The notes beneath the pieces were generated by a model. The model saw nothing but the letters and a program-made list of their open reading frames with translations. It did not search any database and had not been told where the DNA came from. Shown one piece after another: positions 4,632-26,629 of a stretch of 26,629 nt of DNA. The stretch is from a virus. Numbering within the stretch: position 1 is the first letter of the stretch; every line of letters starts with the position of its first letter. Position numbers and translations under genes: made by a program. The stretch covers positions 1 through 26,629 of IMG/VR virus record IMGVR_UViG_3300027796_000314. One strand, given 5' to 3'.

Positions 4632-4702
4632 CGGGGTATTAACCCCGAAATTAAACAACCCTTGAAAACACTGGGTTTGCGGCGATTTTGGGTTGTTTAA
4701 TT
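4632..4702. repeat. Nested inverted repeats before the small terminase gene
   Basis: A small hairpin, CGGGGT-ATTA-ACCCCG (4632-4647), is followed by 13-base arms AATTAAACAACCC (4649-4661) and GGGTTGTTTAATT (4690-4702) around a 28-base spacer. They fill the gap between the HNH nuclease and the small terminase. Possible roles are a packaging-initiation (cos/pac-like) site or transcript structure; the sequence cannot decide. Confidence 0.5.
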
Positions 4703-4740
4703 CTTTAATAAAAATTGTGCAAACGCGAGGTGAATTTGAA

Positions 4741-6047: not shown

Positions 6048-6065
6048 TGCCGAAGGATAATTTTG

Positions 6066-6095
6066 AAAGGAACTTCAAATGAGGTTCCTTTTTTT
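6066..6095 (+). terminator. Rho-independent terminator
   Basis: AAAGGAAC (6066-6073) pairs with GTTCCTTT (6084-6091) around a ten-base loop and runs into seven T residues. It ends the DUF6329/DUF6900-like pair. Confidence 0.8.
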
Positions 6096-6134
6096 GTATA
6101 GCGGATTATATTATTGAAGAATTTAAGGTTGCTC

Positions 6135-6163
6135 TTGATTTATTTGACTAAAGATGTTATAAT
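6135..6163 (+). promoter_or_regulatory. Promoter of the 1290-residue secreted protein gene
   Basis: TTGATT (6135-6140), a 17-base spacer and TATAAT (6158-6163) preceded by TGT give an extended -10 sigma-A promoter. The leader to the start codon would be about 95 bases. Confidence 0.65.
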
Positions 6164-6265
6164 TTGTATAAGCGTGGGTGAAGGTACGGCATACTATAAA
6201 AGAATTCACTCGTATTATTTGAATAATATCGTAAGAATCAACAAGGATAAAGGCGGGTGTTTCAT

Positions 6266-9200
6266 ATGCGCAAATGGTTATCGGCTTTGTTTATTTTCTG
6301 TGCCTTAACTGGTTTTTACGTCCCGGCAAAGGCTTCCTCCACTCCCGGAACCTACACGCTTCGATACGGCGAAAGCATGACGATTGAGGTAACAGAAACA
6401 ATCATCAATGTGAAAGATCAATATGACAATCTCATTTCTTCCTCTTACGAAAACTACAATCTCCGTTTTTCGGGCACAACCACTTCGGCGTATTTTAAAG
6501 ACAGTGTGCAAATATCCGGTCAACCTGAATATCAGCAGTATCGGAATACGTATGAACTTTTTGCGGAGAATTACGGCCGGCAGGTATATGATCTGTACAA
6601 GATCACGACTGTCAGCGTTCCGGGGCCATACCATTATAATGAAGAGCTGATCGGACAGTATATTATCGACGTTCCGCCGGAGGGCAAGCTGCCCGCGCCG
6701 GTCGCGACAAAGCCTTCCGGTACATATGACCTGAACACCATCGTCGGCCTGTCCTGCGACATGGAGGGCTCGTCGGTATGTTTCACCTGCGGCACAGAGG
6801 AAGAAACGGCGGCAATGGAAAAAAAGGACTACAACAATCTGACCGTGTGGCCGTATCCCGCAGAATTGTTCTCCCTCACGCAGGACACGGTGGTAAGGGC
6901 CTATGCCACCAAATTCGGCTATGAGGACAGCGACATAGCCACCTTCCGCTACAATATCAGCCGGTACCGGCTGACCATGGTGGTACGGGATAAATATACG
7001 CAGGAACCGCTGTTTGACGCAGAAATCAAGCTTGGCTACTTTGACACGCTCCGAACCAACCTCAGCGGCATGGCCGTGTTTTCGGCGCAGAATGTCACCG
7101 ATCTTGACCTGAACGTAACCAAACAGGGCTATGCGCCTTGGAACGGCAGCTATCACCTTGCGGAGCAGGCGGGGCTTTTGTATATTGATCTGGAGCCTTT
7201 GCCGGACAGCATTTCTTTGTCCGTGAATTTAGGCGGTAGCGTGTCTTTCTACACCGAGGGACCGAAAATTGATTTTATGAATCAGCAGTTCCCCCTCTTT
7301 CCGGAAATGGAAGTAGGGTTCGATTTGCCGCTTGGCGGCAGCGACAGTGACATGATTACGCTGGAATTTGACCCGCAGACGCAGACCTATAAAGGCACGC
7401 TCAGCACCGAGGGCGAAGCGGAGAATGAAAACGTAAAATTTGAAAAGGCGAAATCCGCCGTTAAATCCATGAATAAAAACCGACTGCGGCTGCTCTCCGG
7501 CGATCTGCCCGGGAAACTTGGCGTAAACGGCAGTTACTCCTGCGTGGGGTATGTGGAAGCCAGAAAGCTGCCAAACGGAGAAATCCGGATTGTCACCGGT
7601 GAACTGGTGTTTTCGTTTGGAGCGGGCGCAAGCCTCACCTATCCTTTCCCCTCTTTCCCGCTTGCCTATTGTAAATTCGCGGTGGAAGGCAGTGCGGACG
7701 GCAACCTCAAGCTTTCACTGACCGATTCGTACAACTGGTTTGACGGGGCGACGGCGAGTGGGCATCTTTTGGCATCGCTGGAGCCTTCCGTGGGCGTGGG
7801 GCTGGGCGTGAGCGGGTTGGCCAATCTGGAGGTAGGGCTCAAAGGAACGCTGGACGTGGAAACACAGCTTCCGCTTGTCAACCCACAAACAGACCTGACG
7901 GTGGATTTGGCAGGCTCGGTATATTTAAAGGCACAGGCGATGGGCTTTTCGCAGGAGCGTTCGCACACGCTGTCCAGCTGCCGCCTGTATCCACAAATGA
8001 CGGAAACCATGTCGCTGATGAGCCTTGACGCGGATGGGTTTTCACCGGTTCCCCGCGTTCAACCGGCACGGCTGCGGCTGATGGCGTTTGACATGAACGC
8101 TGCGGATGAGCCTGTCAAAGCCAATGTTTACCCGTATGGCCAGCCCGATTTTATCACTCTTGCAGACGGACAAAAGCTAATGGTATGGGTGGATGACCTG
8201 CCCGCACGTTCCGCCGCCAATCGTACGGCTATATTGTATTCTATTTATGACGGTAACTCCTGGAGTGCTCCGCAGACAGCCGCGGACGACGGCACCGCCG
8301 ACTTTTCGCCTCGGCTGTGCCAAACCGCAGACGGTGTTTTCCTTGTTTGGCAGAACGCTGACGGTGTTCTCCCGGAGGGTGCGGACATGACCCAGACAGC
8401 GGCTTCTTTAGGTATCAGCGCTGCAAAATTTACCGGCAGCGGATTCGGCGCTGTTCTTTCCCTAACGCAAGCCGGCGACGGCTTCGATTCTGCGCCGCAG
8501 GTTTCGGCAAACGGTAGCAAACTGGCTGTCATCTGGACAAAGAATTCCGAAAATGATTGTTTCGGCATGACCGGATACAATTCCATTCTCCGCAAGATAT
8601 ATAACGGAACAGCATGGGAAAGTACACAGGCGATTCAAGAATACCTTTGGGGGCCGGCTGAGCTGGCTGCCACATGGATAAACGGCGAAAATATCGTTGC
8701 GTACAGTGCGGACACCGACAGCAACCTTAGCACGGTTTATGACCGGAATATTTTCTTGTATCACGGCGCGGAAACCACCGCCCTGCCCGTCGGCAAAGGC
8801 AATATTACCTGCCCTGTGTTTTCCGGCGCCGACCTGTACTGGTGTTGCGGCGGCGATATTATGACCATGAAAAACCTTGATACCGAGCGGATTTCCACTG
8901 TCGCAGAAAAAGCGGATGCATTTGGGCTCAATGCCGCAATAAACGAACAGGGCGGCACACTGCTCTACTGGCTGCGCGCCAACGGGTTCGGCACGGATGT
9001 ATACGGCATGACATACGACGCTGAAAATACACGCTGGAGCTCCCCTGTTACCCTTGCGGCGAAAGGCACCCGCGTTCGCGACGTTAAGGCGATTCTGGCT
9101 ACCGACGGTTCGGCAGAGCTTGCCTATAATTCCGTCGCATTGACCGGCACGGACGACGCTCCCTATGGGCAGACGGATTTGATCTTTTCGTCCGCCTCAT

Positions 9201-10138
9201 CCGCCCCCGACCTGATCGCAGACGAAACATTTTTTGACGACACGCAGGTAGTCGCAGGAGCGCCACTGACCCTGCATATTCCGGTGAAAAACACCGGTCT
9301 TGGCACGGCGGATTCCCTTCTGATTGAACTGCTGGACGCAAATGATACTTTGATACAAAGCAAAATGGAAAACACACCGCTTTTACCAGGAGAAAGCGGC
9401 CTGTTTGAAATGCAGTATTCCCTGCCGGAAAGCCTGACAAAGCACAATATAAAGGTGCGTGTTTTGCCCGCAAATGGCACAGACGCCGCGCCGGAAAACA
9501 ATATTACCACGCTCACCATCGGCGGTGCGCGAATTGTTCTGAAAAAAGCGGATGTTTCCCGCAGTTTTCCGAACAGAACCATTAGGCTGACATTGCAGAA
9601 CAAAGGCTATGCAGACACCGGCACTGTCATGCTGATTCTGCGGGATCATGAAAAAATCATTTTTACGGATCAAATCAGAAACATTGCCGCACAGGGCGAG
9701 TCTGTGATTACCCTGAACATGCCGGACAGCGCGTTTGACTATACCGGCAATACGCTTGTTCTAAGCGGTAACGTTACGTCCCAAAGCGGCGCGGGCACAG
9801 ACTTTGGCGTGCTGATGGAAAAAATGTACCCGCTGGATGCTGCCATTGGGTATATCACCATGAACAGCGAATCACTGGATGTGGAAACGTCCGTGCGCAA
9901 TAATACAAGCGACACGCAAACCACGCGGCTTGTTTTGTCCGTGCATGACAACCAAAACACGCTGCGCGGTATACGGATACAGAGCGTCAGCGTGCCGCCG
10001 GGCGAACAGCTGCTCGAAAGCCATGAGGTCGGCATCGGCGATAATTATCCCGGCAACTGTAAAATAAAAATGTTCCTTTGGCAGGAGGATGGCACCCTTA
10101 CCCCTCTTGCCCTCCCGAATGTGCAAGCTATCAATTGA
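6266..10138 (+). CDS. Large secreted multidomain beta-rich protein
   Basis: The product is 1290 residues from the ATG at 6266, chosen because the purine-rich AGGCGGG lies eight bases upstream; a GTG three codons earlier overlaps it. Residues 1-23 form a signal peptide cut after AKA. About 140-232 resemble a chitobiase C-terminal-like fold (PSGTYDLNTIVGLSC ending TVVRAYATKFGYEDS). About 233-312 resemble a carboxypeptidase regulatory-like module (PLFDAEIKLGYFDTLRTNLS). The middle is glycine-rich and beta-structured. About 610-970 look like sialidase/propeller-type repeats (YDGNSWSAPQTA, NGTAWESTQAI, DAENTRWSSPVTLAA). About 977-1190 hold two CARDB-like domains (HIPVKNTGLGTADSLLIEL). The last residues, CKIKMFLWQEDGTLTPL, match the tail of the 464-residue protein downstream. 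There is no sortase signal or transmembrane anchor. It is GC-rich compared with its neighbours. The ligand is unknown; extracellular binding is inferred. Confidence 0.85.
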   Translation: MRKWLSALFIFCALTGFYVPAKASSTPGTYTLRYGESMTIEVTETIINVKDQYDNLISSSYENYNLRFSGTTTSAYFKDSVQISGQPEYQQYRNTYELFAENYGRQVYDLYKITTVSVPGPYHYNEELIGQYIIDVPPEGKLPAPVATKPSGTYDLNTIVGLSCDMEGSSVCFTCGTEEETAAMEKKDYNNLTVWPYPAELFSLTQDTVVRAYATKFGYEDSDIATFRYNISRYRLTMVVRDKYTQEPLFDAEIKLGYFDTLRTNLSGMAVFSAQNVTDLDLNVTKQGYAPWNGSYHLAEQAGLLYIDLEPLPDSISLSVNLGGSVSFYTEGPKIDFMNQQFPLFPEMEVGFDLPLGGSDSDMITLEFDPQTQTYKGTLSTEGEAENENVKFEKAKSAVKSMNKNRLRLLSGDLPGKLGVNGSYSCVGYVEARKLPNGEIRIVTGELVFSFGAGASLTYPFPSFPLAYCKFAVEGSADGNLKLSLTDSYNWFDGATASGHLLASLEPSVGVGLGVSGLANLEVGLKGTLDVETQLPLVNPQTDLTVDLAGSVYLKAQAMGFSQERSHTLSSCRLYPQMTETMSLMSLDADGFSPVPRVQPARLRLMAFDMNAADEPVKANVYPYGQPDFITLADGQKLMVWVDDLPARSAANRTAILYSIYDGNSWSAPQTAADDGTADFSPRLCQTADGVFLVWQNADGVLPEGADMTQTAASLGISAAKFTGSGFGAVLSLTQAGDGFDSAPQVSANGSKLAVIWTKNSENDCFGMTGYNSILRKIYNGTAWESTQAIQEYLWGPAELAATWINGENIVAYSADTDSNLSTVYDRNIFLYHGAETTALPVGKGNITCPVFSGADLYWCCGGDIMTMKNLDTERISTVAEKADAFGLNAAINEQGGTLLYWLRANGFGTDVYGMTYDAENTRWSSPVTLAAKGTRVRDVKAILATDGSAELAYNSVALTGTDDAPYGQTDLIFSSASSAPDLIADETFFDDTQVVAGAPLTLHIPVKNTGLGTADSLLIELLDANDTLIQSKMENTPLLPGESGLFEMQYSLPESLTKHNIKVRVLPANGTDAAPENNITTLTIGGARIVLKKADVSRSFPNRTIRLTLQNKGYADTGTVMLILRDHEKIIFTDQIRNIAAQGESVITLNMPDSAFDYTGNTLVLSGNVTSQSGAGTDFGVLMEKMYPLDAAIGYITMNSESLDVETSVRNNTSDTQTTRLVLSVHDNQNTLRGIRIQSVSVPPGEQLLESHEVGIGDNYPGNCKIKMFLWQEDGTLTPLALPNVQAIN

Positions 10139-10161
10139 AGCTATTGAATTCAGGTTAAAAA

Positions 10162-10202
10162 ATCCAGCCATGCTCAGGTGTAATCGCCGGGCATGGCTGG
10201 AT
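10162..10202. terminator. Bidirectional terminator
   Basis: ATCCAGCCATGC (10162-10173) pairs perfectly with GCATGGCTGGAT (10191-10202) around a 17-base loop. TAGTTTT follows on the plus strand, and ATTTTTTAACC on the minus strand. It separates the convergent 1290-residue gene and the recombinase operon. Confidence 0.85.
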
Positions 10203-10215
10203 ATAGTTTTATGCC

Positions 10216-10632
10216 TTATTCTGCCTTGGGTGCACGGAACACATCTTCAATTGCTTCTTCCATATCAAAAAATACAGTCCTGCTCTCCGTGTCAAAATAT
10301 CCTATTACCTTATAACGAAGCTTTGGGTCACAATCGTCCTTCATAAGCGTTCTGACGGTTTCAATAAAATTTTTGTTACTGGTACTGAGTGTTGAAAGCT
10401 GTTCGCTCCTTGGCTTTGAAAACGGAGTGCTTTTCGCTTCGTTGCTTTTGCATACACGAACGGCAAACACCTTTTTTTCCGCATTTACACAGTATTGCAC
10501 GTTTGCCGGATACCCCAAATCTTCCAGCACCTTTTTTGTAAAGGTGATCGAGGTCTTATTAATATAGATATCAGGCGTTGCGTTTACGCTCAGGTCGATG
10601 ATGTCAAAATTGATATTTTTAAAGTCTTTCAT
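10216..10632 (-). CDS. Conserved-looking protein downstream of a serine recombinase
   Basis: The product is 138 residues, starting MKDFKNINFDIIDLSVNATP, with AAAGGA eight bases upstream; a longer in-frame reading from 10668 overlaps the recombinase. It lies 13 bases after the recombinase stop, so the two form one operon, and the ribosome site sits at the end of the recombinase gene. Visible segments are NKTSITFTKKVLEDLGYPAN, VQYCVNAEKKVFAVRVCKSN and LRYKVIGYFDTESRTVFFDM. There is no signal peptide or membrane segment, and no known motif. It recalls the anonymous proteins often placed next to clostridial large serine recombinases. A recombination-directionality or accessory role is possible but is inferred from position only. 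Confidence 0.7.
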   Translation of the reverse strand: MKDFKNINFDIIDLSVNATPDIYINKTSITFTKKVLEDLGYPANVQYCVNAEKKVFAVRVCKSNEAKSTPFSKPRSEQLSTLSTSNKNFIETVRTLMKDDCDPKLRYKVIGYFDTESRTVFFDMEEAIEDVFRAPKAE

Positions 10633-10645
10633 AATAATATTCCTT

Positions 10646-11857
10646 TCATGTCGAGTCTTTAGGCTCATTTATTGATTTTAATATTTGGATGAATTTACTG
10701 CGTTCTTCCTTGTTCCAAGAGGGGTCTATCAGATAAAATCCACGCAGGCGACCGGATTTCACCCTTGCGACCACAAACTTTTTTTGTATATTTTTGATTT
10801 TGGCACCATGACTGCTCCACTCTTTAGCAATGAGCAGTTCCTGAGCCTTATCCCATTTACCCCGTTCAATGATCGCGACATGGCAGTTTTCCCAACGGTA
10901 CTGTATCAGTATGTTGTCATTTTTAGCGGATTTGTGAGTCAGGAAGTCCTTTGTATAGGTTTTCTGATATAACACGTCCCCGCAATACTTTTCATTGGAT
11001 AATATTCCCTTTACTGTACCTTGCCCCCAACGCTCCATGCCTTTCGGCGAGGTAATCCCCTGTTGAGTCAGAGCGTCGGCAATGCCCTGCGGCGAAGCGC
11101 CTTCAATAAAGCTGTCGTAAATATAACGTACAATCTCAGCCTCCGCAGGCTCAATTTTAACTGCTCCCGTGTAGTCACGATAATAACCAAGAGTATTCAA
11201 AACGGTGAATTTGTACACACCTTCATGCATCCTGTATCGGATACCTGCTTTAATGGCTTCACTTTTTTGTTGCGACTCCAGTTCAGCAAGCGCCGACAAC
11301 ATGGAAATCAGCAGCTTATTCCTGCCATCGGATGTATCAATGCCCTCCGTTTCAAAATTAACAGTGACAGGCGGAGTGAGGTCGCCCAGTATGCGGAGTG
11401 AAGTCAGTATATCTACAATATTTCGCCCGAACCGGCTTATGCTCTTTGTGAGTATCAAATCAATTTTGCCGCGCCGTGCGTCCTCAATCATCTCCTGAAA
11501 CTCCTTGCGTTTTGCAACAGAAGTGCCGGAAATACCCTCATCTTTATAAATTCTTGCCAATTCATACTGCGGATTGCTTTCTATCACTTCGGTAAAATGC
11601 TGTACCTGCATTTCAAAACTGCCGACCTGAGCTTCTTCTGCTGTGCTGACGCGGCAATACGCAGCTACCCGTAATTTCTTTGCGGACTGGTCTGACGTGT
11701 CCTTCTTGGTAGGCATTATAACAGTAACCTTGCGCTCGCCGTTACGATTTTGCAAAATTGCGTCCTGCAACCGTTTTCGCTCTATTTCCCTGCTGTTAAC
11801 AGCCTCGCCTTTTCTTCGAGCCTTTTCAATACGGTCTGCATCCAGCTTTTTTGCCAT
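10646..11857 (-). CDS. Large serine recombinase (resolvase/invertase domain plus recombinase domain)
   Basis: The product is 403 residues; AGGAGGT lies about ten bases before the ATG. An unusual ~60-residue basic N-terminal extension precedes the catalytic domain. That domain has VAAYCRVST (nucleophile Ser71), YKDEGISGTSVAKRKEFQEM and ILTKSISRFGRN, all intact. The recombinase domain follows, with LGYYRDYTGAVKIEPAEAEI and GTVKGILSNEKYCGDVLYQK. It is shorter than typical large serine recombinases (450-550), because the C-terminal cysteine zinc ribbon and coiled coil are absent. The tail has basic, aromatic residues only. It would cut and rejoin DNA at an attachment site through a Ser-DNA link. 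It is followed by a 138-residue partner gene. It looks functional, though the short C-terminus could alter synapsis control. Confidence 0.88.
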   Translation of the reverse strand: MAKKLDADRIEKARRKGEAVNSREIERKRLQDAILQNRNGERKVTVIMPTKKDTSDQSAKKLRVAAYCRVSTAEEAQVGSFEMQVQHFTEVIESNPQYELARIYKDEGISGTSVAKRKEFQEMIEDARRGKIDLILTKSISRFGRNIVDILTSLRILGDLTPPVTVNFETEGIDTSDGRNKLLISMLSALAELESQQKSEAIKAGIRYRMHEGVYKFTVLNTLGYYRDYTGAVKIEPAEAEIVRYIYDSFIEGASPQGIADALTQQGITSPKGMERWGQGTVKGILSNEKYCGDVLYQKTYTKDFLTHKSAKNDNILIQYRWENCHVAIIERGKWDKAQELLIAKEWSSHGAKIKNIQKKFVVARVKSGRLRGFYLIDPSWNKEERSKFIQILKSINEPKDST

Positions 11858-13660: not shown

Positions 13661-13975
13661 TTATTGCGAGAGTGTCCAGCGACAAGGAAGCAAAGATTCA
13701 CTCGCTATCGGCTCAGATAAGTTATTATAGCGAACTTATTCAGAAGCACAACGGGTGGGAGTACATCGGTATTTATGCGGTCGAGGCCTTGAACGGTATT
13801 AGGGATAACAGAACAGAGTTTCAAAAAATGCTTAATGACTGTAGCAATGGCCGAATTGATATGATCATTATAAAATTCATATCAAGGTTGGCACGCAACA
13901 CCGTAACGATGCTCCAAACGGTAAGAGAATTGAAAGAATTAAACGTTGATATTTTATTTGAAAAAGAGAATATAA
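13661..13975 (+). pseudogene. Truncated serine recombinase copy
   Basis: Only the middle of a resolvase catalytic domain remains, from the nucleophile region (ARVSSDK minus its upstream part) to VDILFEKENI. It aligns without gaps to residues about 25-125 of the recombinase at 17641, differing at roughly 17 of 103 residues. Key positions are lost: YEDEALTG has become YAVEALNG, and ITKSISR has become IIKFISR. There is no proper start, and the reading is shifted by one base near 13664. The 3' end stops abruptly at the terminator stem at 13976. It is in the same orientation as the intact copy 4 kb away. Confidence 0.85.
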
Positions 13976-14018
13976 AACACGGCAGAAACCATTGATTTTA
14001 CTGGGTTTCTGCCGTGTT
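13976..14018. terminator. Strong hairpin terminator, probably bidirectional
   Basis: AACACGGCAGAAACC (13976-13990) pairs perfectly with GGTTTCTGCCGTGTT (14004-14018) around 13 bases. On the minus strand a TTTTAT run follows, so it serves the restriction operon that ends at 14094. On the plus strand AAGCTTTGTTTT follows. Confidence 0.75.
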
Positions 14019-14093: not shown

Positions 14094-15782
14094 TTAAGAA
14101 GCTAACCACATATCAACACAGGCTTGAATACCATAGTGCCAGTGGTTTTCATCGGTTGCTTTTTCGCATAGCTTAATAGCATAATCAAGAAAACTGCGAA
14201 TGTCTGCCGGAGTAGGTTGCGTTTTGTAATTATAGGAATTTTCTACAAGCCGCATAAATTGGTCTAATTCAAGTGGTATGATTTTTGATTTACCACCATA
14301 TAAAGCGATGGACAAATGGTTCAAACCGTAGAAATGGGCTAAAGTTGCTGCATTTATTGACGGCGCAACAAACAAGCAATATGTTTCTTTCCCAGATTTC
14401 TTTTTTAACTGTCCATAATGACGGGCTACAGGTTCGCCCTCCGCTTCATATTGACGTTGCCCCGATTGCATGGTTACTTCAACAGATAATGCAAAATCGG
14501 AATAATCACATTCAATGTCAGGCATATTTCCGGTCGCAGTTGAAAGCGGCTGTCCTGCGTCGTCAAATTTGAAATTGCCTTTTATTTTACCGCCGTCAAG
14601 CATAGTCATAGCTCGCCATGTATTGTATTCAAACATTAACGGTGCGTCAAAAATCTCGTCGGATATTATTTCGTTGTATGTGTCCATAATCTCGGAATAC
14701 AGAGAATAGGACTTTATCTTTTCTACCTGCTCGGTAATTACCGCCTCTTTGTGCTTCTGTACTATATCGTCGCGCAAGTCTTTCAGGTCGTCTATCGTCC
14801 GGCTTATGAGTTCGCGCCTTGTATATGCGCCGATACGCATAAGTGTATCAACAATGTTGTCTTTGACATCCACATAAAGCGCAGGTTGCGTTGCCGAAAA
14901 CAAATGCGCCTTATATGCCGCTTCATCGTCAATAAAAACGGGCTTTCGATCAACCGTCGAAAGTATGTAGTCAACCTCCGGCAACTTATCGGCAAAGAAA
15001 GTTATTGTTCGGTTTCTGTGAGCTATGGACACAAGCCCGGTATAACGCAAATAACGAAAGCAAGCGTCGGCATAATCGCGCAAGTTGCTTTTCTTTGTTG
15101 CTATAAATTTCTTTAAACTTGCGTCAGCGGTTTCCCTGGTTTTAGTCTTGCCTTCATTAATATCGTCGTTATAAATACTCATAATTGCATTTGTCCACAC
15201 GTCATTGACAAAACGCTTGTATTCGCCCCTATGAGCTTCCTTATCAACGCGGAACGCGAAAATTCTCGTTTTTACAGCATCAAACTTGCGATAGTCCGTA
15301 AGCTGAACTGCAAATATTTTCAGTTCATCGAACGTGATATATTCCAGTTCGCGCACTAAACGCATTATTTCAAGGTATGGACGAACATAAAAAGTTCCGG
15401 CAATACCACGATTTTCAATATGATAGGGGGACGGCAACTGAAATTTGAGAAGTTGCCGCAAGAATATTTCTTGCGGTCGCTTGCCCGATATTAGAGCGTT
15501 ACCGGCGTCAGTTAGTGCTATGCTCGGTTTTAAGTCAACAAACCCTAACGCCTTAGGCGCTCGGTTTATACGGTCGCGGGCGCTAAACGCCTTATCGGTA
15601 GGTGAGCCTGTCCCCTCGAAAAAATCAGATTCCGCAAGCCTATCTATGAATTCCTCTTGCGTTGCGGAATTCCATAGACGTCCCTCAAAGAGTTCGTGCA
15701 AAAGTCGAATTTCGGGTATCATCTTCGCGGGGGTACGCGGCGATGTTGTAAAAAACAAAGCCTTATTATCAATTCGTGCCAT
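14094..15782 (-). CDS. AlwI-family type II restriction endonuclease
   Basis: The product is 562 residues. The start at 15782 (MARIDNKALFFTTSPRTPAK) is preferred to an ATG two codons upstream, because AGGGGG is nine bases away from it but only three from the other. The N-terminal half (SPRTPAKMIPEIRLLHELFE, then SARDRINRAPKALGFVD) resembles the DNA-binding half of AlwI-type type IIS nucleases. The C-terminal half carries a PD-(D/E)xK-type site, NMPDIECDYSDFALSVEVTM, with Asp422 and Glu435 as likely metal ligands. Family members cut outside short asymmetric sites such as GGATC; the site of this one cannot be read from sequence. It is the second gene of an operon, 20 bases after the methylase stop, which would let modification precede cutting. 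It appears intact. Confidence 0.85.
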   Translation of the reverse strand: MARIDNKALFFTTSPRTPAKMIPEIRLLHELFEGRLWNSATQEEFIDRLAESDFFEGTGSPTDKAFSARDRINRAPKALGFVDLKPSIALTDAGNALISGKRPQEIFLRQLLKFQLPSPYHIENRGIAGTFYVRPYLEIMRLVRELEYITFDELKIFAVQLTDYRKFDAVKTRIFAFRVDKEAHRGEYKRFVNDVWTNAIMSIYNDDINEGKTKTRETADASLKKFIATKKSNLRDYADACFRYLRYTGLVSIAHRNRTITFFADKLPEVDYILSTVDRKPVFIDDEAAYKAHLFSATQPALYVDVKDNIVDTLMRIGAYTRRELISRTIDDLKDLRDDIVQKHKEAVITEQVEKIKSYSLYSEIMDTYNEIISDEIFDAPLMFEYNTWRAMTMLDGGKIKGNFKFDDAGQPLSTATGNMPDIECDYSDFALSVEVTMQSGQRQYEAEGEPVARHYGQLKKKSGKETYCLFVAPSINAATLAHFYGLNHLSIALYGGKSKIIPLELDQFMRLVENSYNYKTQPTPADIRSFLDYAIKLCEKATDENHWHYGIQACVDMWLAS

Positions 15783-15802
15783 TGTCATTTACCCCCTTGC
15801 TT

Positions 15803-16651
15803 TCAATAGTTTTTAACGATAATATGCATTTTGTCGTTGTTAAAGCGATTCTTTATATTTACAGCATAGTTTTTATAGTATTCGTCAAAGATAAATTCGC
15901 CGTAAAGTTCCTCGGTGAGCGGTGTTTTACCGATAATCATAAGGGCGCGACAAGGAAGATTCCGAAAATCAGCGGCTAACCTACGGTGTTCTGTTTCATC
16001 AAAACCGTTCATCATATCAATATTGCCATAGTCGTTGAACACACAATCATATGGCGGGTCAAGAAAGATAAAATCATCATCTTCTGCCATGTCAAATATT
16101 TGCCGATAGTCAAGGCTGAACAATTCCGCGCCTTGAAGTAACTCGCTATGTTGTGAAGTTACTAACCGCGTATTAAGATTAGGATAACGCCCAAATGGCA
16201 CATTATATTCCCCGCTGCTATTATAGCGTATCATACCAGAATAAGCTGTTTTGTTTATAAAAAAGTATAGAACGCCGTCTAAATAGGTATCGTCCGGATG
16301 ATTGAACAAGTCACGAATACGGTAATATAAATCCTCGTTGGCGTTGGGTACGCGTTCTTCCGGGGTTTTTATTTTCAGTTCCTTGTATGTAGTTTGATTC
16401 AATTCATACTGCCTTTGAAGTTCGTCAAACTGTTGCCGCATTTTCGGGTAGCTATCCCTTAATTGTGTATAGAAAGCCATAAGTCGCTCATTTACATCGT
16501 TTAATATGGCGTTATCAGGTTCAAGATAAAAATATACTGCGCCGCCGCCCAAAAATGGTTCAATATAACGGTTAAAATTATCAGGAATATATTGTAGGAA
16601 ACGCGGTATTTCCCGCGATTTTCCACCACGATATTTTAATACGGGATTCAT
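15803..16651 (-). CDS. Dam/D12-class DNA adenine N6-methyltransferase
   Basis: The product is 282 residues, starting at the ATG at 16651 with AAAGGAG ten bases upstream; the in-frame extension to 16696 lacks a ribosome site. Motif X is KYRGGK (6-11), motif I is EPFLGGGAVYF (31-41) and motif IV is DPPYD (198-202), in the alpha-class order of Dam-like enzymes. The target-recognition region lies between motifs I and IV and includes YFFINKTAYSGMIRYNSSGE. It transfers a methyl group from S-adenosylmethionine to adenine in the site of its partner nuclease. It precedes the AlwI-family nuclease in one operon behind the promoter at 16712-16740. If the nuclease reads GGATC, a GATC-type methylase would protect both strands with one enzyme; this is inference. 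Confidence 0.92.
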   Translation of the reverse strand: MNPVLKYRGGKSREIPRFLQYIPDNFNRYIEPFLGGGAVYFYLEPDNAILNDVNERLMAFYTQLRDSYPKMRQQFDELQRQYELNQTTYKELKIKTPEERVPNANEDLYYRIRDLFNHPDDTYLDGVLYFFINKTAYSGMIRYNSSGEYNVPFGRYPNLNTRLVTSQHSELLQGAELFSLDYRQIFDMAEDDDFIFLDPPYDCVFNDYGNIDMMNGFDETEHRRLAADFRNLPCRALMIIGKTPLTEELYGEFIFDEYYKNYAVNIKNRFNNDKMHIIVKNY

Positions 16652-16681
16652 AGTGCGTCGGCTCCTTTCAAAGATTTCGGT

Positions 16682-16701
16682 GAGAGGTGGACACACCTCT
16701 C
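16682..16701 (-). other. Leader hairpin of the restriction-modification operon
   Basis: GAGAGGTG and CACCTCTC pair around a four-base loop within the untranslated leader, between promoter and methylase start. It may be an operator or an RNA hairpin affecting expression. Confidence 0.4.
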
Positions 16702-17640: not shown

Positions 17641-18975
17641 ATGGAAAAAACCGTACGAAAAATAGCGCCTTCCGCACCGCGGATACCAAAACGAAAGCGT
17701 GTCGCGGCTTATGCGAGAGTGTCCAGCGACAAGGACGCAATGCTTCACTCGCTGTCGGCACAGGTCAGCTATTACAGCGAACTTATCCAGAAGCATAACG
17801 GGTGGAAGTACATTGGCGTTTATGAGGACGAGGCCTTGACCGGTACCAGGGATAACAGAGCAGAGTTTCAAAAGATGCTTGATGACTGCCGCAATGGCAG
17901 GATTGATATGATCATTACAAAATCCATATCAAGGCTGGCGCGCAACACCGTTACAATGCTACAAACGGTAAGAGAACTGAAAGAATTAAATGTTGATATT
18001 TGGTTTGAAAAAGAGGAAATCCATAGCTTAAGCGGGGACGGTGAATTGCTACTCACCATCCTCTCTTCTTTTGCGCAGGAGGAAAGCCTGTCGGTCAGCG
18101 AAAATTGTAAATGGCGGATTCGGAAACAGTTTCAAGAAGGGCGGTCAACAAATTTAAAATTACTTGGGTATGATTATATTGACGGCGATTTGATTGTCAT
18201 TCCTGAGGAAGCGGAAACAGTACGAATGATTTTCCTCGATTATCTGAGCGGTATGGGTAAGCAGGCAATTATGAAGAAGCTAAACGACCTCGGTATAAAA
18301 ACCAAACGTGGCTGCGTCTGGCACGAACATTCTGTCGGGATTATCCTATCAAATGAAAAGTACATTGGAAATATGCTTCTTCAAAAAACATACAAAAATA
18401 ACCACATAGAAAAGAAGCCACGCTTCAATCACGGTGAGCTGCCCATGTACTTTGTTGAAAACAGCCATGAGGGAATCATTGACAAACCTACCTTTGACGC
18501 CGTTCAGGCTGAAATGCAAAAACGGGCTTCAAGGTTTGTTAAAAAATCCAAGCCGGATAGCATATTCACAGGCCTGATTCACTGCTGCGGCTGCGGAATG
18601 AATTACCGAAGAAAAATCGCCAACGCTGGCAGCAAATACGCAAAACCAATATGGATGTGCCAAACATTTAACCTATACGGCAAAGAAAGCTGCCCCTCAA
18701 AGCAGATACCTGAAGATATTCTGATAGCTCTTACGGCGGAGGTTTTGGGGATTCCGGAATTTGACGAAGCGGTCTTTAAACAGCAAATCAGTGAGATACG
18801 AGTACCAGAGCCAAATACACTGATTATTGTTTTTAATAATGGAAGAATCACAGAAAAACAGTGGCAAAACAAATCACGCAGGGATAGCTGGAGCGCTGAA
18901 TCCAAACAGCGGGCACGGGAAAAACAGCTTACATACCTGGAAAGGAGGAACCTGCCATGTCCGCAAGATCAGTAA
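17641..18975 (+). CDS. Large serine recombinase, first of an overlapping pair
   Basis: The product is 444 residues; GGAGG lies six bases before the ATG. The catalytic domain has VAAYARVSSD (nucleophile Ser28), YEDEALTGTRDNRAEFQKML and ITKSISRLARNT, all intact. The recombinase domain contains VGIILSNEKYIGNMLLQKTY. A zinc ribbon (LIHCCGCGMNYRR, later MCQTF and ESCPSK, at about 314-350) precedes a short C-terminal region without a long coiled coil. It should act in site-specific integration or excision of the element carrying it. Its 3' end overlaps the next recombinase by 19 bases, so the two are translationally linked. Such tandem pairs are usual in clostridial integrative elements and often act together. 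A truncated copy lies at 13661-13975. Confidence 0.92.
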   Translation: MEKTVRKIAPSAPRIPKRKRVAAYARVSSDKDAMLHSLSAQVSYYSELIQKHNGWKYIGVYEDEALTGTRDNRAEFQKMLDDCRNGRIDMIITKSISRLARNTVTMLQTVRELKELNVDIWFEKEEIHSLSGDGELLLTILSSFAQEESLSVSENCKWRIRKQFQEGRSTNLKLLGYDYIDGDLIVIPEEAETVRMIFLDYLSGMGKQAIMKKLNDLGIKTKRGCVWHEHSVGIILSNEKYIGNMLLQKTYKNNHIEKKPRFNHGELPMYFVENSHEGIIDKPTFDAVQAEMQKRASRFVKKSKPDSIFTGLIHCCGCGMNYRRKIANAGSKYAKPIWMCQTFNLYGKESCPSKQIPEDILIALTAEVLGIPEFDEAVFKQQISEIRVPEPNTLIIVFNNGRITEKQWQNKSRRDSWSAESKQRAREKQLTYLERRNLPCPQDQ

Positions 18976-20543
18976 CCTTTATACCGGCAACGACAGGCCG
19001 TCTTGCCCCTGTAATCCTTGGCACACCTGATAAAAAGCGGGTAGCAGCTTACGCCAGAGTGTCGACCGATAATGAAGAGCAGCTATCCAGCTTTGACGCC
19101 CAAATGGACTATTACACAAAGAAAATTCAGTCAAATGAAGCCTGGGATTTTGTAGAAGTCTACACTGATGAGGGGATTTCGGCAACCAGCACCAAAAAAC
19201 GCGACGGCTTTAAACGGATGATCAGCGACGCTCTAAACGGCAAAATTGACCTTATTATCACAAAATCGGTGAGCCGTTTTGCACGCAATACGGTGGATAC
19301 TCTTACCACAGTCCGGCAGCTTAAGGAAAAAGGTGTGGAAGTTTTTTTCGAGAAAGAGAATATTTATACATTAGATAGCAAAGGCGAATTGCTGATTACC
19401 ATTATGTCCTCCTTGGCTCAGGAAGAATCCCGTTCAATCAGTGAAAACGTCACATGGGGTCAGCGGAAACGTTTTGCCGACGGGAAGGTCAGCCTACCGT
19501 ACAAACGGTTTCTCGGTTACGAAAAAGGGGAAGACGGAGTCCCGAAAATCGTAGAAAAGGAAGCGGAGGTTGTTAGACTAATTTACAAAATGTTTCTTGG
19601 AGGAAAGACTCCGGCGACTATTTCACGGCATTTGACGAATAACGGAATACCCACACCAGCTGGGAAAGTGAAGTGGAATTCAAGTACGGTGGTAAGTATC
19701 CTCACCAATGAGAAGTACAAGGGTGACGCCATCCTGCAAAAGAAGTTCACAGTCGATTTCTTGACTAAGAAAACAAAGGTCAATGAAGGCGAGGTACCGC
19801 AATATTATGTGAATAACAGCCACCTCGCAATCATTGAGCCAGAGGTGTTTGACCTAGTACAACATGAGATGGAAAAGCGGAAATGTACAGGGCGGCATCA
19901 AAGTGGTATCAGCTGTTTTTCAAGCAGGATTATCTGCGGCCAGTGCGGCAGCTTTTACGGAAGCAAGGTGTGGCATTCCACCAGCAAATACCGGCGGGTG
20001 GTTTGGCAGTGTAATAATAAGTTTAAAAACGATACACCGTGTCAAACGCCCCATTTTTATGAAGATACGCTTAAACAGGCATTTGCGGATGTATTCAACA
20101 GTCTTATAGAGAACAAACACGAGGTTATATCGGTTTATGACGATATTGTCCGCACCCTGACCGATAACACGGCACTTGAAGCAAAGAGCGCCACGCTGCA
20201 AAAGAAGTGTGACGCTCTGTTTGAACAGATGCGGCAATGCGTGGATGAAAACGCCCATAAAACCCTTGATCAGAATGAATATCAGCGCCGGTACAGCGGT
20301 TTATTAAATCAATATGAAGCGACAAAACGAAAGCATGACCAGATTACAAATGAAAAGCAAGAACGTATTACAAAACACAAAAATATCAGCCTGTTTTTAA
20401 GGACGCTTGATCAGAATAGTACGCTGTTAGCGGAATTCGATGAGGAGCTTTGGTATTCTATGGTGGATACAGTATCCGTACATTCCGAACACAACCTAAC
20501 ATTTACATTTAAGGACGGAACAAAAAGACCTTGGATAATCTAA
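18957..20543 (+). CDS. Large serine recombinase, second of the pair
   Basis: The product is 528 residues, starting inside the end of the previous gene, with AAAGGAGG eight bases upstream. The catalytic part has VAAYARVSTDN (nucleophile Ser36), YTDEGISATSTKKRDGFKRM and LIITKSVSRFARNTVDTL. The recombinase domain includes STVVSILTNEKYKGDAILQK. The zinc ribbon is IICGQCGSFYGSK with VWQCNNKF and TPCQTPH. A coiled coil at about 400-470 (ALEAKSATLQKKCDALFEQM) follows, as in integrases that need directionality control. All main residues are present, and the length is usual for the family. A terminator lies directly after the gene. The target site cannot be read from the window; no clear attachment repeat was found. 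Confidence 0.93.
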   Translation: MSARSVTFIPATTGRLAPVILGTPDKKRVAAYARVSTDNEEQLSSFDAQMDYYTKKIQSNEAWDFVEVYTDEGISATSTKKRDGFKRMISDALNGKIDLIITKSVSRFARNTVDTLTTVRQLKEKGVEVFFEKENIYTLDSKGELLITIMSSLAQEESRSISENVTWGQRKRFADGKVSLPYKRFLGYEKGEDGVPKIVEKEAEVVRLIYKMFLGGKTPATISRHLTNNGIPTPAGKVKWNSSTVVSILTNEKYKGDAILQKKFTVDFLTKKTKVNEGEVPQYYVNNSHLAIIEPEVFDLVQHEMEKRKCTGRHQSGISCFSSRIICGQCGSFYGSKVWHSTSKYRRVVWQCNNKFKNDTPCQTPHFYEDTLKQAFADVFNSLIENKHEVISVYDDIVRTLTDNTALEAKSATLQKKCDALFEQMRQCVDENAHKTLDQNEYQRRYSGLLNQYEATKRKHDQITNEKQERITKHKNISLFLRTLDQNSTLLAEFDEELWYSMVDTVSVHSEHNLTFTFKDGTKRPWII

Positions 20544-20552
20544 TATGAAACG

Positions 20553-20588
20553 AACCGCCTGCAGAAAATGACATTTCTGCAGGCGGTT
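20553..20588 (+). terminator. Rho-independent terminator of the recombinase pair
   Basis: AACCGCCTGCAGAAA (20553-20567) pairs perfectly with TTTCTGCAGGCGGTT (20574-20588) around a six-base loop, followed by TTCTCTTTT. Confidence 0.88.
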
Positions 20589-20633
20589 TTCTCTTTTACA
20601 AAGAAAATGGGGAAATTCCGGAAGTTTTGTCAA

Positions 20634-21061: not shown

Positions 21062-21090
21062 TTGAAAGTTGATTTTGTTAGTGGTACAAT
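21062..21090 (+). promoter_or_regulatory. Promoter of the exonuclease-RecQ-UvrD gene
   Basis: TTGAAA (21062-21067), a 17-base spacer and TACAAT (21085-21090) preceded by TGG. TGTCAATTGAA (21056-21066) covers the -35 and contains the palindrome TCAATTGA. The leader would be about 35 bases, with GAGGAG six to seven bases before the ATG at 21132. Confidence 0.7.
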
Positions 21091-21131
21091 ATTAAAGGAT
21101 AATAATATAAAATTGTCATGAGGAGAGAGAT

Positions 21132-24100
21132 ATGGCAAAATCAATTGTATTTATCGATAGCGAAGTCGGTGTCGACGACAAAAAAATACATGACTTAGGT
21201 GCAGTGCGCAATGATCGTGCCACATTTCACAGCGCATCTGTACAGGATTTTTGTGCCTTTATCTCTGGATCAGAATGCCTTTGTGGGCATAATATAGTAC
21301 ACCATGATATGAAATTCATCAAACCTCATATCAGTGGTGGTATTACCTATAAATATATTGATACTTTATATCTTTCCCCGTTACTTTTTCCAAAAAGGCC
21401 TTATCACGCTTTGCTGAAGGATGATAAGCTCCAATCAGATGAGTTTAACAATCCGCTTAATGACGCTCAAAAGGCAGAAAAACTCTTTTATGATGAAGTA
21501 AGTGCCTTCCATACACTGTCATCGCAAAGAAAGCAAATATACTGTTGTCTATTATATCAATTTGAGGAGTTTCAGGGGTTTTTTGACTATGTAGATTTTT
21601 TGCCTTATAGATCCAATGTAGAAAAACTTATTGCAACTGAATTCAATGGTAAAATATGTTCAAATGCAGATATCCCTCTATTGATTAAATATTACCCTGT
21701 AGAGTTGGCATATGCGCTTGCTCTTATCGGAAGTGATGACTATCATTCCATTACACCTCCGTGGCTCCTTAAAAATTATCCGAAGATAGAAAATGTTATT
21801 AAGTTTCTGTGTAACACTCCTTGTGGTAACGACTGCATTTACTGTTCATATGCGCTTAATATTCACAAAGAATTGAAGAAAATATTCGGGTATGATAGCT
21901 TCCGTACATATAATGGTGAGCCTCTGCAAGAAAAAGCAGCTCAAGCAGCTGTTGATGGGAAATCACTGCTCGCGGTCTTCCCTACAGGAGGCGGTAAGTC
22001 TATAACTTTCCAGCTGCCGGCACTTATGGCAGGCAAGACCGTTCACGGTTTGACGGTTGTCATTTCTCCGCTTCAGTCGCTGATGAAGGATCAGGTAGAC
22101 AATCTCAACGAAATCGGAATCGTGGATGCTGTTACAGTGAATGGGTTGCTTAGCCCAGTTGAGCGTTCAGAAGCTTATGAACGCATTGCGAATGGTACCG
22201 CCACACTTTTATATATTTCTCCGGAGCAGCTGCGTTCAAAAACAATTGAAAAAATGTTAATGTCACTTAATATTGTTCGTTTTGTTATTGATGAGGCCCA
22301 TTGCTTTTCAGCATGGGGTCAGGATTTTCGTGTCGATTATCTATACATTGGCGACTTTATCCGTGGATTGCAGAAGAAAAAGAAAGATAAAAAGCCGATA
22401 CCGGTTTCATGCTTTACCGCCACTGCAAAGCAAAAGGTTATCAGTGATATTTGCGAGTACTTCAAGTGCAAGCTTGATCTCGACCTTGAATTATTTGCAT
22501 CATCAGCTACACGTGAAAACCTTCAATATGTTGTTCTTTATAAGGAAACTGAAGAAGAAAAGTATTCAGCACTCCGTTCATTGATAGAGCAAAAGAATTG
22601 CCCGACAATCGTATACGTGTCCCGTACAAAGCGTACCCGCGATTTAGCGTCAAAGCTGACAAGCGACGGTTTTCCTGCCAAGCCCTTTAACGGAAAGATG
22701 GACCCGAATGAAAAAATCGCCAATCAAGAGGCTTTTATCCGTAACGAAGTTAAGGTTATAGTTGCAACTTCGGCTTTTGGTATGGGCGTTGATAAAAAGG
22801 ATGTTCGCCTGGTAATCCATTATGATATTTCTGATTCTCTTGAAAATTATGTTCAGGAAGCCGGTCGTGCGGGGCGCGATCCTTCGCTTCTTGCAGATTG
22901 TTATGTCCTATTTAACGACAATGACCTTGACAAGCATTTCATACTGCTGAACCAGACAAAACTCAGCATCAGCGAAATTCAACAAGTATGGAAAGCACTA
23001 AAGGATCTGACAAAGCTTCACCCTAACATTTGTTGCTCGCCGCTTGAAATTGCACGCCAAGCCGGTTGGGATGACTTTGTCTCTGATATTGAACCAAGGG
23101 TAAAGACCGCTATCGCTGCATTGGAGAGTGCCGGATATATAAAGCGTGGCCGCAATGTACCACACGTTTATGCCACAAGTATTCTTGCCAAAAACATGCA
23201 GGAAGCAAGCTTTCAGATAGACCGTTCACCCCTGTTTTCCGACTCTCAGAGACAGGATGCTAAAAGAATCATTAAGTCTTTGATTTCAAGCCGCAGTATA
23301 GCAAAGGCGGGAAATGACGATGCTGAGTCACGAGTTGATTATCTTTCAGATATTCTTGGCATTGCTAAGCATGATGTTGTGACTTCAATCGATTTGATGA
23401 AACAAGAGGGACTCCTTGCCGACGCACAGGATATGTCCGCTTACATCCTCAAATCTGATTCTCAAAACAAATCGCTGCAAATTCTTGATAGGTTTGCGAA
23501 GCTCGAATCATTCATTTTTTCTCAGCTGCCCGAAGAAGGCTGCTCCATAAACTATAAAGAGTGGAATGAAGCAGCACTTGCCTCCGGTGTAACGTCTTCT
23601 AGCGTTAGGAATATAAAAACATTGCTATATTATCTGACCATAAAAGATTATATTCGCAAGGTCGAAGACGCAGAACAACACATTGCAATAGTTCAGCCTT
23701 CTATGAATCCTAAACTTTTATATAATAAATATACTCTCAGAATAGATATATGCAGATTTATTGTTAGTGAATTATATAGCAAGATCGAAAATATTGCTGA
23801 CGAGACTAAGGAAGAATCTCCTGTATTATTTTCTCTTGTCGGCTTGTTACTCACATACAAAGAAACCCCTAAACTAGACATAGATACATCATCAGTCACG
23901 GTTGCAGACGTTGCTGACGCATTACTTTACTTGTCTAAAATAGGCTCCATGAAGCTTGAAGGTGGTTTTTTGGTACTATACAACGGCATGGAAATTAAGC
24001 GTTTGGTTTCGGATAACAGAATCAAATATAAAGTTGATGATTATAAATTGCTGGATGAGTTCTACAAGCAAAAAATCAGACAGATTCATATTGTCGGTGA

Positions 24101-25976
24101 GTATGCAAATCTGATGGTACGGGATTATAATGCCGCGCTGCAATTTGTGCAGGATTATTTCCAGTTGGATTTCAAAAAATTTATTTCAAGATATTTTAAA
24201 GGTGACAGAGCAAAGGAAATTAACCGTAATATTACTCCTGATAAATATAATCAGCTATTCGGGCAGTTATCTGATATTCAATCTCAGATAATTAACGATA
24301 ATGAATCAAAGTATATTGTTGTGGCTGCTGGTCCCGGAAGCGGAAAAACCCGTGTGTTAGTGCATAAGCTTGCCTCTCTTCTTCTTCTTGAAGATGTAAA
24401 ACACGAACAGCTCCTTATGCTGACATTTTCACGCGCCGCGGCCACTGAATTTAAGAAACGCCTGATTGACCTAATAGGTAATGCCGCTAATTTTGTAGAA
24501 ATCAAAACATTCCATTCTTATTGTTTTGATCTGCTCGGTAAGATCGGAACCCTTGAAAGCTTAGATAATGTTGTTAAAAATGCCTCTGAAATGATTTATA
24601 ACGGCGAAGTCGAGACGGGAAAAATCACGAAGAGTGTTCTAGTAATCGATGAAGCACAAGACATGGACGAAAATGAATTTGCACTAATTCAGGCACTTAT
24701 TCATTCCAATGATGATATGCGTATATTTGCAGTTGGTGATGACGACCAGAATATTTATGAATTTAGAGGCTCAAATTCCAAATATTTACGCACTCTTATC
24801 GTGGACTATGGTGCTGTAAAATATGAAATGGAAGAAAATTTCAGAAGCATGGGCAGCATCGTCGCTATGAGTAATGCTTTTGTCGCATCCTTGCGAAATC
24901 GTATGAAATCTTCTCCAATTCAGGCTGTTCAAGAAGAAACCGGAACAGTTGAAATTACTCATCACAGCTCGGACCGTATGGAGGAAGCTATTGCAAATCA
25001 TGTGTCAAAGACATATCAGGGTGGAAAGGCTTGTGTGCTTACAAGCACCAACTACGAGGCGTTGCAGGTGCAGGCCATACTTACCCAAAAAGGTATATGG
25101 GCCAAATTAATACAATCCAACGATGGATTTAGGCTATATAATCTTGCAGAAGTCCGCTTTTTCCTCAATCTAATTGATACCGAACTCAAGTCTCCGGTAA
25201 TTGATGATGCTTTATGGTCTGCTTCGAAAAAACAACTTGCTAAGGCTTATACTGAGAGTTCCTGCTTGCCCAATTGTTTAAATATGCTTACGGAGTTTGA
25301 AAGCGTTAACAGTATAAAATTCCGTACTGACCTGGGCGAATTTATCAAAGAATCTAACTATGAAGACTTTTATACTGGAGAGGGCGAGGCTGTATATGTT
25401 TCTACGATTCATAAATCTAAGGGCAGAGAGTTTGATACCGTATATTTACTTTTAAAAAACGTATTTGATACAAGCGATGAAGAAAAACGAAAGCTGTATG
25501 TAGCGCTGACCCGTGCTAAAGAATCTTTGTATATCCACTATAACACCGATATTTTCAACAAATATTCTGTTGATGGTATCATTAAAAAGGAAGATATGAC
25601 AGAGTACGATGAACCTTTGGAAATTTTTCTTCAGCTGACACATAAAGATGTTGTCCTTAACTTTTTTAAGGATAAGAAGGAAATCATATTGAGGCTTCGT
25701 AGCGGCGGTAAACTTGCAGTATCCGAAAATTTTCTATCCTCTGAAATAGGTGAGAGGACCGTTCGTGTGGCAAAATTCTCAAATGGATTTGCAGAGAAAC
25801 TGGAGACACTAAAAAACAAAGGTTATGAGCCGATTAGCGCCCAAGTAGGCTATATTGTCGCATGGCAGGGCGAAGAAGATGATGATGAATCAGCTATTAT
25901 TTTGCCAATTCTGCGCCTAAAGCAATCACATATACCCGATTATGACAGAAGCATTAATAGACAGAATTTATTTTGA
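21132..25976 (+). CDS. Exonuclease-RecQ-UvrD triple fusion helicase
   Basis: The protein has 1614 residues. Residues 1-125 form a DnaQ-like 3'-5' exonuclease domain with IDSE (Asp9, Glu11), GHNIVHHDMKF (Asp59) and NNPLNDAQKAEKLF (Asp111); the usual motif III histidine is Asn106. A four-cysteine cluster follows (Cys227, 231, 235, 238). About 255-600 form a RecQ-type SF2 helicase: FPTGGGKS (283-290), VIDEAHCFSAWGQDFR (DEAH 387-390), FTATAK and QEAGRAGRD (575-583). About 600-1050 contain winged-helix-like segments; no RQC zinc site or HRDC domain is evident. About 1060-1480 form a UvrD/Rep-like SF1 helicase: AAGPGSGKT (1065-1073), VIDEAQD, VGDDDQNIYEFRG, TIHKSKGREFDTVYL and LYVALTRAKESL. All helicase motifs look intact. 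It would unwind and process DNA ends or branched DNA using ATP. It has its own promoter and is followed by a DEDDh exonuclease gene. Confidence 0.93.
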   Translation: MAKSIVFIDSEVGVDDKKIHDLGAVRNDRATFHSASVQDFCAFISGSECLCGHNIVHHDMKFIKPHISGGITYKYIDTLYLSPLLFPKRPYHALLKDDKLQSDEFNNPLNDAQKAEKLFYDEVSAFHTLSSQRKQIYCCLLYQFEEFQGFFDYVDFLPYRSNVEKLIATEFNGKICSNADIPLLIKYYPVELAYALALIGSDDYHSITPPWLLKNYPKIENVIKFLCNTPCGNDCIYCSYALNIHKELKKIFGYDSFRTYNGEPLQEKAAQAAVDGKSLLAVFPTGGGKSITFQLPALMAGKTVHGLTVVISPLQSLMKDQVDNLNEIGIVDAVTVNGLLSPVERSEAYERIANGTATLLYISPEQLRSKTIEKMLMSLNIVRFVIDEAHCFSAWGQDFRVDYLYIGDFIRGLQKKKKDKKPIPVSCFTATAKQKVISDICEYFKCKLDLDLELFASSATRENLQYVVLYKETEEEKYSALRSLIEQKNCPTIVYVSRTKRTRDLASKLTSDGFPAKPFNGKMDPNEKIANQEAFIRNEVKVIVATSAFGMGVDKKDVRLVIHYDISDSLENYVQEAGRAGRDPSLLADCYVLFNDNDLDKHFILLNQTKLSISEIQQVWKALKDLTKLHPNICCSPLEIARQAGWDDFVSDIEPRVKTAIAALESAGYIKRGRNVPHVYATSILAKNMQEASFQIDRSPLFSDSQRQDAKRIIKSLISSRSIAKAGNDDAESRVDYLSDILGIAKHDVVTSIDLMKQEGLLADAQDMSAYILKSDSQNKSLQILDRFAKLESFIFSQLPEEGCSINYKEWNEAALASGVTSSSVRNIKTLLYYLTIKDYIRKVEDAEQHIAIVQPSMNPKLLYNKYTLRIDICRFIVSELYSKIENIADETKEESPVLFSLVGLLLTYKETPKLDIDTSSVTVADVADALLYLSKIGSMKLEGGFLVLYNGMEIKRLVSDNRIKYKVDDYKLLDEFYKQKIRQIHIVGEYANLMVRDYNAALQFVQDYFQLDFKKFISRYFKGDRAKEINRNITPDKYNQLFGQLSDIQSQIINDNESKYIVVAAGPGSGKTRVLVHKLASLLLLEDVKHEQLLMLTFSRAAATEFKKRLIDLIGNAANFVEIKTFHSYCFDLLGKIGTLESLDNVVKNASEMIYNGEVETGKITKSVLVIDEAQDMDENEFALIQALIHSNDDMRIFAVGDDDQNIYEFRGSNSKYLRTLIVDYGAVKYEMEENFRSMGSIVAMSNAFVASLRNRMKSSPIQAVQEETGTVEITHHSSDRMEEAIANHVSKTYQGGKACVLTSTNYEALQVQAILTQKGIWAKLIQSNDGFRLYNLAEVRFFLNLIDTELKSPVIDDALWSASKKQLAKAYTESSCLPNCLNMLTEFESVNSIKFRTDLGEFIKESNYEDFYTGEGEAVYVSTIHKSKGREFDTVYLLLKNVFDTSDEEKRKLYVALTRAKESLYIHYNTDIFNKYSVDGIIKKEDMTEYDEPLEIFLQLTHKDVVLNFFKDKKEIILRLRSGGKLAVSENFLSSEIGERTVRVAKFSNGFAEKLETLKNKGYEPISAQVGYIVAWQGEEDDDESAIILPILRLKQSHIPDYDRSINRQNLF

Positions 25977-26074: not shown

Positions 26075-26629
26075 ATGAGCCGATTTGCTGTAATTGACAC
26101 GGAGACAACTTGGGGTGATGCGGTTATGTCCATCGGAATCGTCATCGCCGATTCTGAAACGTTCGAATTGGTGGACAAACGATATTACATACTCACCCCA
26201 TTCAAAAATCACGGCGGTATGTACACTTATGCCCTATACGCTGGCGGTATCAAGCCAGACCTTGAGTGCTCACGGGAAAATGCAATGGACGAGTTGCAAC
26301 TATTTCTCTATGCTCACGACGTTGCGGCCATCTTTGCTTACAACGCCACGTTTGACTATCGCCACTTGCCGGAACTCCAACACCTCGCTTGGCACGATAT
26401 TATGAAACTGGCGGCATATAGGCAATACAACCCCAAAATTTTGAATTGCGCCGAATGCTATGGTACAGGCAGATTGAAAAGAGGCTATGGTGTGGAGAGC
26501 ATTTACAGATTATTGAGCGATAATTTAGCATACTGTGAGATGCATAACGCTCTAACCGATGCGATAGACGAGTTGGAGATAATGAGGTTGCTGAATCATG
26601 AACTCTGCAGGTATACAAAAATCTCATGA
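26075..26629 (+). CDS. DEDDh 3'-5' exonuclease (DnaQ/RNase T-like)
   Basis: The product is 184 residues; AAGGAG lies seven to eight bases before the ATG, and the TGA falls at the window end. Motif I is VIDTETTWGDAVMSIG (Asp8, Glu10), motif II is FAYNATFDYRHL (Asp94) and motif III is MHNALTDAIDELEIM (His157, Asp162). All five DEDDh residues are therefore present, and exonuclease activity on single-stranded DNA or RNA is expected. Two extra cysteines in NCAECYGTG may be structural. It follows the exonuclease-RecQ-UvrD gene by 98 bases on the same strand, without a visible terminator between them, so co-transcription is likely. It could supply the nuclease activity for the helicase protein, whose own exonuclease domain lacks the histidine. 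A housekeeping exonuclease placed by chance is the alternative. Confidence 0.88.
   Translation: MSRFAVIDTETTWGDAVMSIGIVIADSETFELVDKRYYILTPFKNHGGMYTYALYAGGIKPDLECSRENAMDELQLFLYAHDVAAIFAYNATFDYRHLPELQHLAWHDIMKLAAYRQYNPKILNCAECYGTGRLKRGYGVESIYRLLSDNLAYCEMHNALTDAIDELEIMRLLNHELCRYTKIS

Follow-up and report, generated by a model that had tools for sequence, protein, structure and literature searches.

RecQ and UvrD helicases are usually separate enzymes. Members of both families translocate 3'→5', and nucleases of the DEDD type shorten DNA from its 3' ends. In the Werner protein (WRN), an N-terminal DEDD exonuclease of the DEDDy subclass is followed by a RecQ helicase with an HRDC domain, and there is no UvrD motor. 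DinG of Staphylococcus aureus and Bacillus subtilis (ExoDinG) is an SF2 helicase whose N-terminal part is a DEDD exonuclease; in the S. aureus protein (SaDinG) nuclease and helicase are both required for crosslink resistance, and replacement of the catalytic His149 by alanine nearly abolishes activity (PMC12345164). Here we describe a family of bacterial proteins in which an exonuclease, a RecQ helicase and a UvrD helicase share one chain, so that the way in which two motors work together on DNA can be studied in a naturally occurring protein. The RefSeq label for such proteins is "RecQ family helicase", as a sequence-only reading of the locus had anticipated, and its suspicion that a described role is missing was borne out by a search of the open-access literature, which found neither a paper on this layout nor a role for it. 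If the gene serves defence, the current annotation has concealed a large system made of one gene; if it serves repair, the protein is a bacterial parallel to the Werner protein with a second motor.

The gene lies in the window (the whole stretch of 26,629 nucleotides analysed here, a 26.6-kb IMG/VR contig) as a complete open reading frame on the plus strand (21132..25976; ATG start, 1614 aa). It is preceded by a ribosome-binding site, GAGGAGAG (21120..21127), and by a candidate sigma-70-like promoter, TTGAAA-17-TACAAT (21062..21090), which is only plausible, as the scan returned about as many sites as in shuffled sequence. The sequence-only reading had recognised SF2 (RecQ) and SF1 (UvrD) motif sets and DEDD exonuclease residues in a single frame, and the intact frame, profile matches and folds all agree with it. 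A scan of genome collections yielded 136 confirmed relatives, of which 80 were retained, with 70 full-length rows in the alignment; conservation across phyla is strong (53-76% over the full length). The layout is not a chance one, since every one of the 70 full-length relatives keeps the acidic residues of the exonuclease, four cysteines and the Walker lysine of each motor (K289, K1072).

The RecQ core (residues 244-640, 21861..23051; K289 codon at 21996-21998) contains SF2 motifs I-VI and the aromatic-rich loop (WGQDFR), as do E. coli RecQ and human RECQ5 and BLM, and it belongs on these grounds to the RecQ helicase superfamily. It matches Pfam DEAD and Helicase_C, TIGR01389 (E 3e-97, residues 247-640) and TIGR00614 (280 bits, over the curated cut-off of 219.8). 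Unlike those helicases, it shares its chain with an exonuclease and a second, UvrD-type motor and scores below the equivalog cut-off for housekeeping RecQ (TIGR01389, 326 bits against 640); a search of the fusion protein for HRDC (PF00570) gave no match, and by eye no zinc-binding domain of the RecQ type is apparent after motif VI. Among defence proteins, the best PADLOC matches to this half (residues 244-629) are the RecQ-like helicases DpdF and PsyrT, but the likeness is limited to the RecQ core: the NCBIfam DpdF model scores 218 bits against a required 550, the window contains no Dpd operon, and no PsyrA match was found among its ten large proteins.

A mainly helical linker follows (residues 641-1040, 23052..24251), with an RQC-like appearance in the AF2 model that suggests a winged helix. 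The second motor (residues 1041-1480, 24252..25571; K1072 codon at 24345-24347) shows SF1A motifs Q, I, Ia and II-VI, matches Pfam UvrD-helicase (4.5e-33) and UvrD_C (1e-21), and in a model of residues 596-1614 has the PcrA/UvrD/Rep fold (Foldseek, E 5e-23), placing it in the UvrD/Rep group of SF1A. It shares all of these motifs with UvrD, PcrA, Rep and GajB of Gabija, the last of which is among the PADLOC matches, but differs from them in being a compact core of about 440 residues in the C-terminal part of a longer chain. The ten large window proteins gave no match to GajA (OLD nuclease), the partner that a Gabija system would require. The C-terminal tail (residues 1481-1614, 25572..25973) is predicted by AF2 to include a small beta-rich domain at about residues 1527-1598.

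For the N-terminal domain (residues 1-230 with its helical extension, 21132..21821), Pfam showed no exonuclease match in the protein encoded here; in relatives it gave weak DNA_pol_B_exo1 matches only, so that the identification needed fold comparison. Modelled by AF2 (pLDDT 89, pTM 0.85), residues 1-265 matched S. aureus DinG best (3e-4), together with E. coli DnaQ epsilon and Pol II, and D9, E11, D59 and D111 are unchanged in 70 of 70 full-length relatives; an RNase H-like fold with these four metal ligands places the domain among the DEDD (DnaQ-like) exonucleases. The claim that the DEDD residues are present therefore stands, with one refinement: the position of the histidine of the DEDDh subclass (D-5) holds Asn106 in 69 of these 70 relatives, and that of the tyrosine of the DEDDy subclass (D-4) holds Asn107 in all of them, and so the domain is, by sequence, a "DEDD with Asn" type. 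Asn106 corresponds to the catalytic His149 of SaDinG, so the predicted activity should not be assumed: the domain may be either a distinct active subclass or a weak nuclease. The cysteines of the earlier reading's Cys4 cluster were confirmed in sequence, C176, C231, C235 and C238 (21657..21845, spacing C-x54-C-x3-C-x2-C) being invariant in all 70; they are putative ligands of zinc or an Fe-S cluster. Distant plasmid-borne relatives (about 30% identity) keep Asn106 and the acidic residues but not C231, C235 and C238. Compared with the Werner protein, which has the same order of exonuclease and RecQ helicase, the fusion differs in the asparagine at the tyrosine position, the Cys4 set and the second motor; compared with DinG, it differs in that DinG is a 5'→3' helicase and has no SF1 motor.

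The family is accessory, patchily carried and widespread. It is present in 30 of 96 species (about a third) of the genus of genome G002, probably Bacteroides. Of the genomes sampled from the class to which G001 (Pseudoflavonifractor sp.) belongs, which we take to be Clostridia, 19 of 293 carry it. There is usually one copy per genome; the few genomes with two matches hold pieces of one domain. Bacteroidota, Bacillota, Verrucomicrobiota, Planctomycetota, Kiritimatiellota and Thermodesulfobacteriota all have relatives, several of them metagenome bins, and others are carried by proteobacterial plasmids. Branching in the gene tree agrees for the most part with the phyla, with few jumps (6 label changes, minimum 5), which implies that exchange is slower than for typical defence genes. 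The gene is also dispensable and can be lost alone: genome G396 lacks it but retains its last 41 nucleotides as a 3' scar (coding AVLLADLLLSR) between flanks that are 98.3% (left) and 95.7% (right) identical to those of G317. A viral origin was rejected, as a set of 50,697 phage records held none that matches the protein over 80% of its length; the IMG/VR relatives have mostly bacterial-looking flanks by eye, for example cytochrome bd genes beside L149.

In G002's genus, as judged from the first residues of the neighbours, the fusion is often flanked by a sigma/anti-sigma operon on one side and dnaK on the other. The anti-sigma-type gene and dnaK can be as close as 1.2 kb (in G396, which has no fusion) or more than 100 kb apart. 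The fusion is the sole cargo of this slot in L125 and L129; in L119 it is accompanied by a type I restriction-modification system (HsdR and HsdM), and the slot of L124 contains an AlbA_2/Schlafen protein and an SNF2/ResIII-type helicase. In relatives without the fusion the slot carries a C5 methyltransferase with Vsr (L178), a 1007-aa methyltransferase that is DUF1156-like by eye only, a PDB lookup having given no match (L176), AlbA_2, or an integrase/relaxase element (by eye; L177, L190, L192). The sequences thus compared show that the contents of the slot turn over, with the fusion as apparently exchangeable cargo. Across L174-L192 the site beside dnaK is a chromosomal hotspot with restriction, AlbA_2 and integrase/relaxase cargo. 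AlbA_2 lies downstream of the fusion, adjoining it or within about 1 kb, in seven genomes (0.44 expected within 5 kb); these cases probably share one origin, being largely one inherited pairing. In L124, L127, L114 and L123 the AlbA_2 (Schlafen-like) gene shortly downstream is followed by a small membrane-protein-like gene, and the three may form an operon in one Bacteroides lineage.

The neighbourhood statistics depend on the comparison made. Across all loci sampled, near and far neighbours match similar numbers of PADLOC families (65 vs 62). Since far genes can share the same islands, the comparison was redone within G002's genus against random regions of that genus (threshold 1e-20) and gave the opposite answer: 63 PADLOC families among 127 fusion neighbours against 5 among 110 random-region proteins, a count of families, several per protein, that corresponds to an estimated seven or so distinct defence-type proteins at least. 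Across bacteria the immediate neighbours are mainly housekeeping or metabolic genes, and no general partner gene is conserved across the loci. HsdM was rejected as a defence marker, with one observed within 15 kb and 1.1 expected. Plasmid copies have, within 10 kb, HsdRMS (Allochromatium), HipA (Rhizobium, Aliarcobacter) or VapC (Sulfitobacter). Enrichment of defence genes among the neighbours was thus seen in G002's genus, but neither in the near/far comparison across phyla nor for HsdM; the opposite possibility, that homologues sit in core positions without such enrichment, fits the mostly housekeeping neighbours elsewhere better than that genus, where the gene often occupies a variable slot shared with restriction and other defence-type genes.

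In the window, two large serine recombinase genes of the CcrB type stand in tandem directly upstream of the fusion (17641..18975 and 18957..20543, plus strand), with a terminator-like hairpin (20552..20589, plus strand) between them and the helicase gene, and an AlwI-type restriction endonuclease (14094..15788, minus strand) and its Dam-type adenine methyltransferase (15803..16696, minus strand) lie within 7 kb. Because of the tandem recombinases, a truncated recombinase copy and this restriction-modification pair, the sequence suggests a bacterial-looking SCC-like or other integrative element; the fusion gene may lie either inside it or just past its end, and a search of the window for att-like repeats gave no clear one. 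Related recombinases were found at only one other fusion locus searched, so that the recombinase context, which the earlier reading had taken as a clue to function, is peculiar to the window and one other IMG/VR contig (L147) and was set aside as general evidence.

Three explanations of the family have to be weighed. We tentatively favour, at a little less than an even chance, a single-gene genome-defence enzyme (anti-phage or anti-plasmid) that travels as exchangeable cargo in slots used by restriction systems. Its close rival, itself a substantial possibility, is an accessory enzyme of DNA repair or recombination. Such an enzyme would be the bacterial equivalent of WRN, or of S. aureus DinG with its fused exonuclease; combining unwinding with trimming of the 3' strand and displacement of RecA, it would clear crosslinks, D-loops or stalled forks. 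The DinG-like exonuclease fold, the strong full-length conservation, the largely vertical tree and the many copies amid housekeeping genes, some near dnaK and recA, all speak for repair, as does a tendency in Clostridia for the fusion to be found where canonical RecQ is missing (both together in 1 genome, 3.8 expected, P ~0.08, uncorrected for relatedness). In G002's genus, however, all 96 genomes have canonical RecQ with or without the fusion, which is therefore an addition there and not a substitute; replacement of RecQ is excluded in that genus and is only hinted at in Clostridia. Carriage by a minority of species, the clean loss in G396 and a slot common to restriction systems also weigh against a repair role. 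An unlikely third explanation is a maintenance factor that aids the replication, excision or establishment of its recombinase-bearing element: the window copy directly follows two recombinases, L147 has a related pair about 4 kb off, and one of the plasmid copies lies beside ParA/ParB and replication genes. Yet both recombinase cases are IMG/VR contigs, from a collection selected for element-like features, the other loci searched have no related recombinase, in some Bacteroides a chromosomal slot holds the fusion and nothing else, and the hairpin separates the recombinases from the fusion gene. Of the defence or element-maintenance role that the sequence-only reading drew from the context, the defence part has partial support from the shared dnaK slot, the 63 against 5 families, the loss of the gene alone, the plasmid copies near HsdRMS, HipA or VapC and the AlwI/Dam pair of the window, while HsdM, the similar near and far counts, the want of a conserved partner, the housekeeping neighbours and the phylum-like tree count against it.

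Under the defence reading, the protein would be a stand-alone accessory machine of two ATP-driven 3'→5' motors and a DEDD 3'→5' exonuclease. Having loaded on a DNA end, a 3' tail or a branched structure, it would separate the strands, clear away or remodel bound material (for example by UvrD-type removal of RecA), and trim the 3' strand with the exonuclease; we infer the polarity, the substrate, the nuclease activity and foreign DNA as the target. It is conceivable, and we hold it with a good deal of doubt, that this is a one-gene system against phages or plasmids that has so far escaped description, in which motors of two superfamilies but equal polarity open foreign DNA and, with a DEDD nuclease lacking the histidine on the same chain, break it down.

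Some further observations concern the window and its relatives. No capsid, tail or other structural phage gene was recognised in the contig, which has one weak small-terminase match (Terminase_4, 4693-5298). A truncated recombinase fragment at 13672-13995 repeats the opening stretch of the serine recombinase gene that lies downstream (17712-18011; 300 nt, 87% identical). In L147 a related serine recombinase (198-1499, 52% identical) lies about 4 kb from the fusion gene (5914-10779). A separate, canonical DEDDh exonuclease gene, which has the histidine, starts 98 nt past the fusion gene (26075..26629, plus strand) and runs off the contig end; it was not seen in the other loci searched and so is not a conserved neighbour. 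In L141 (7792-12455) the fusion gene appears as two adjoining open reading frames of 773 and 741 aa, which may reflect a frameshift, an assembly error or a natural two-subunit form.
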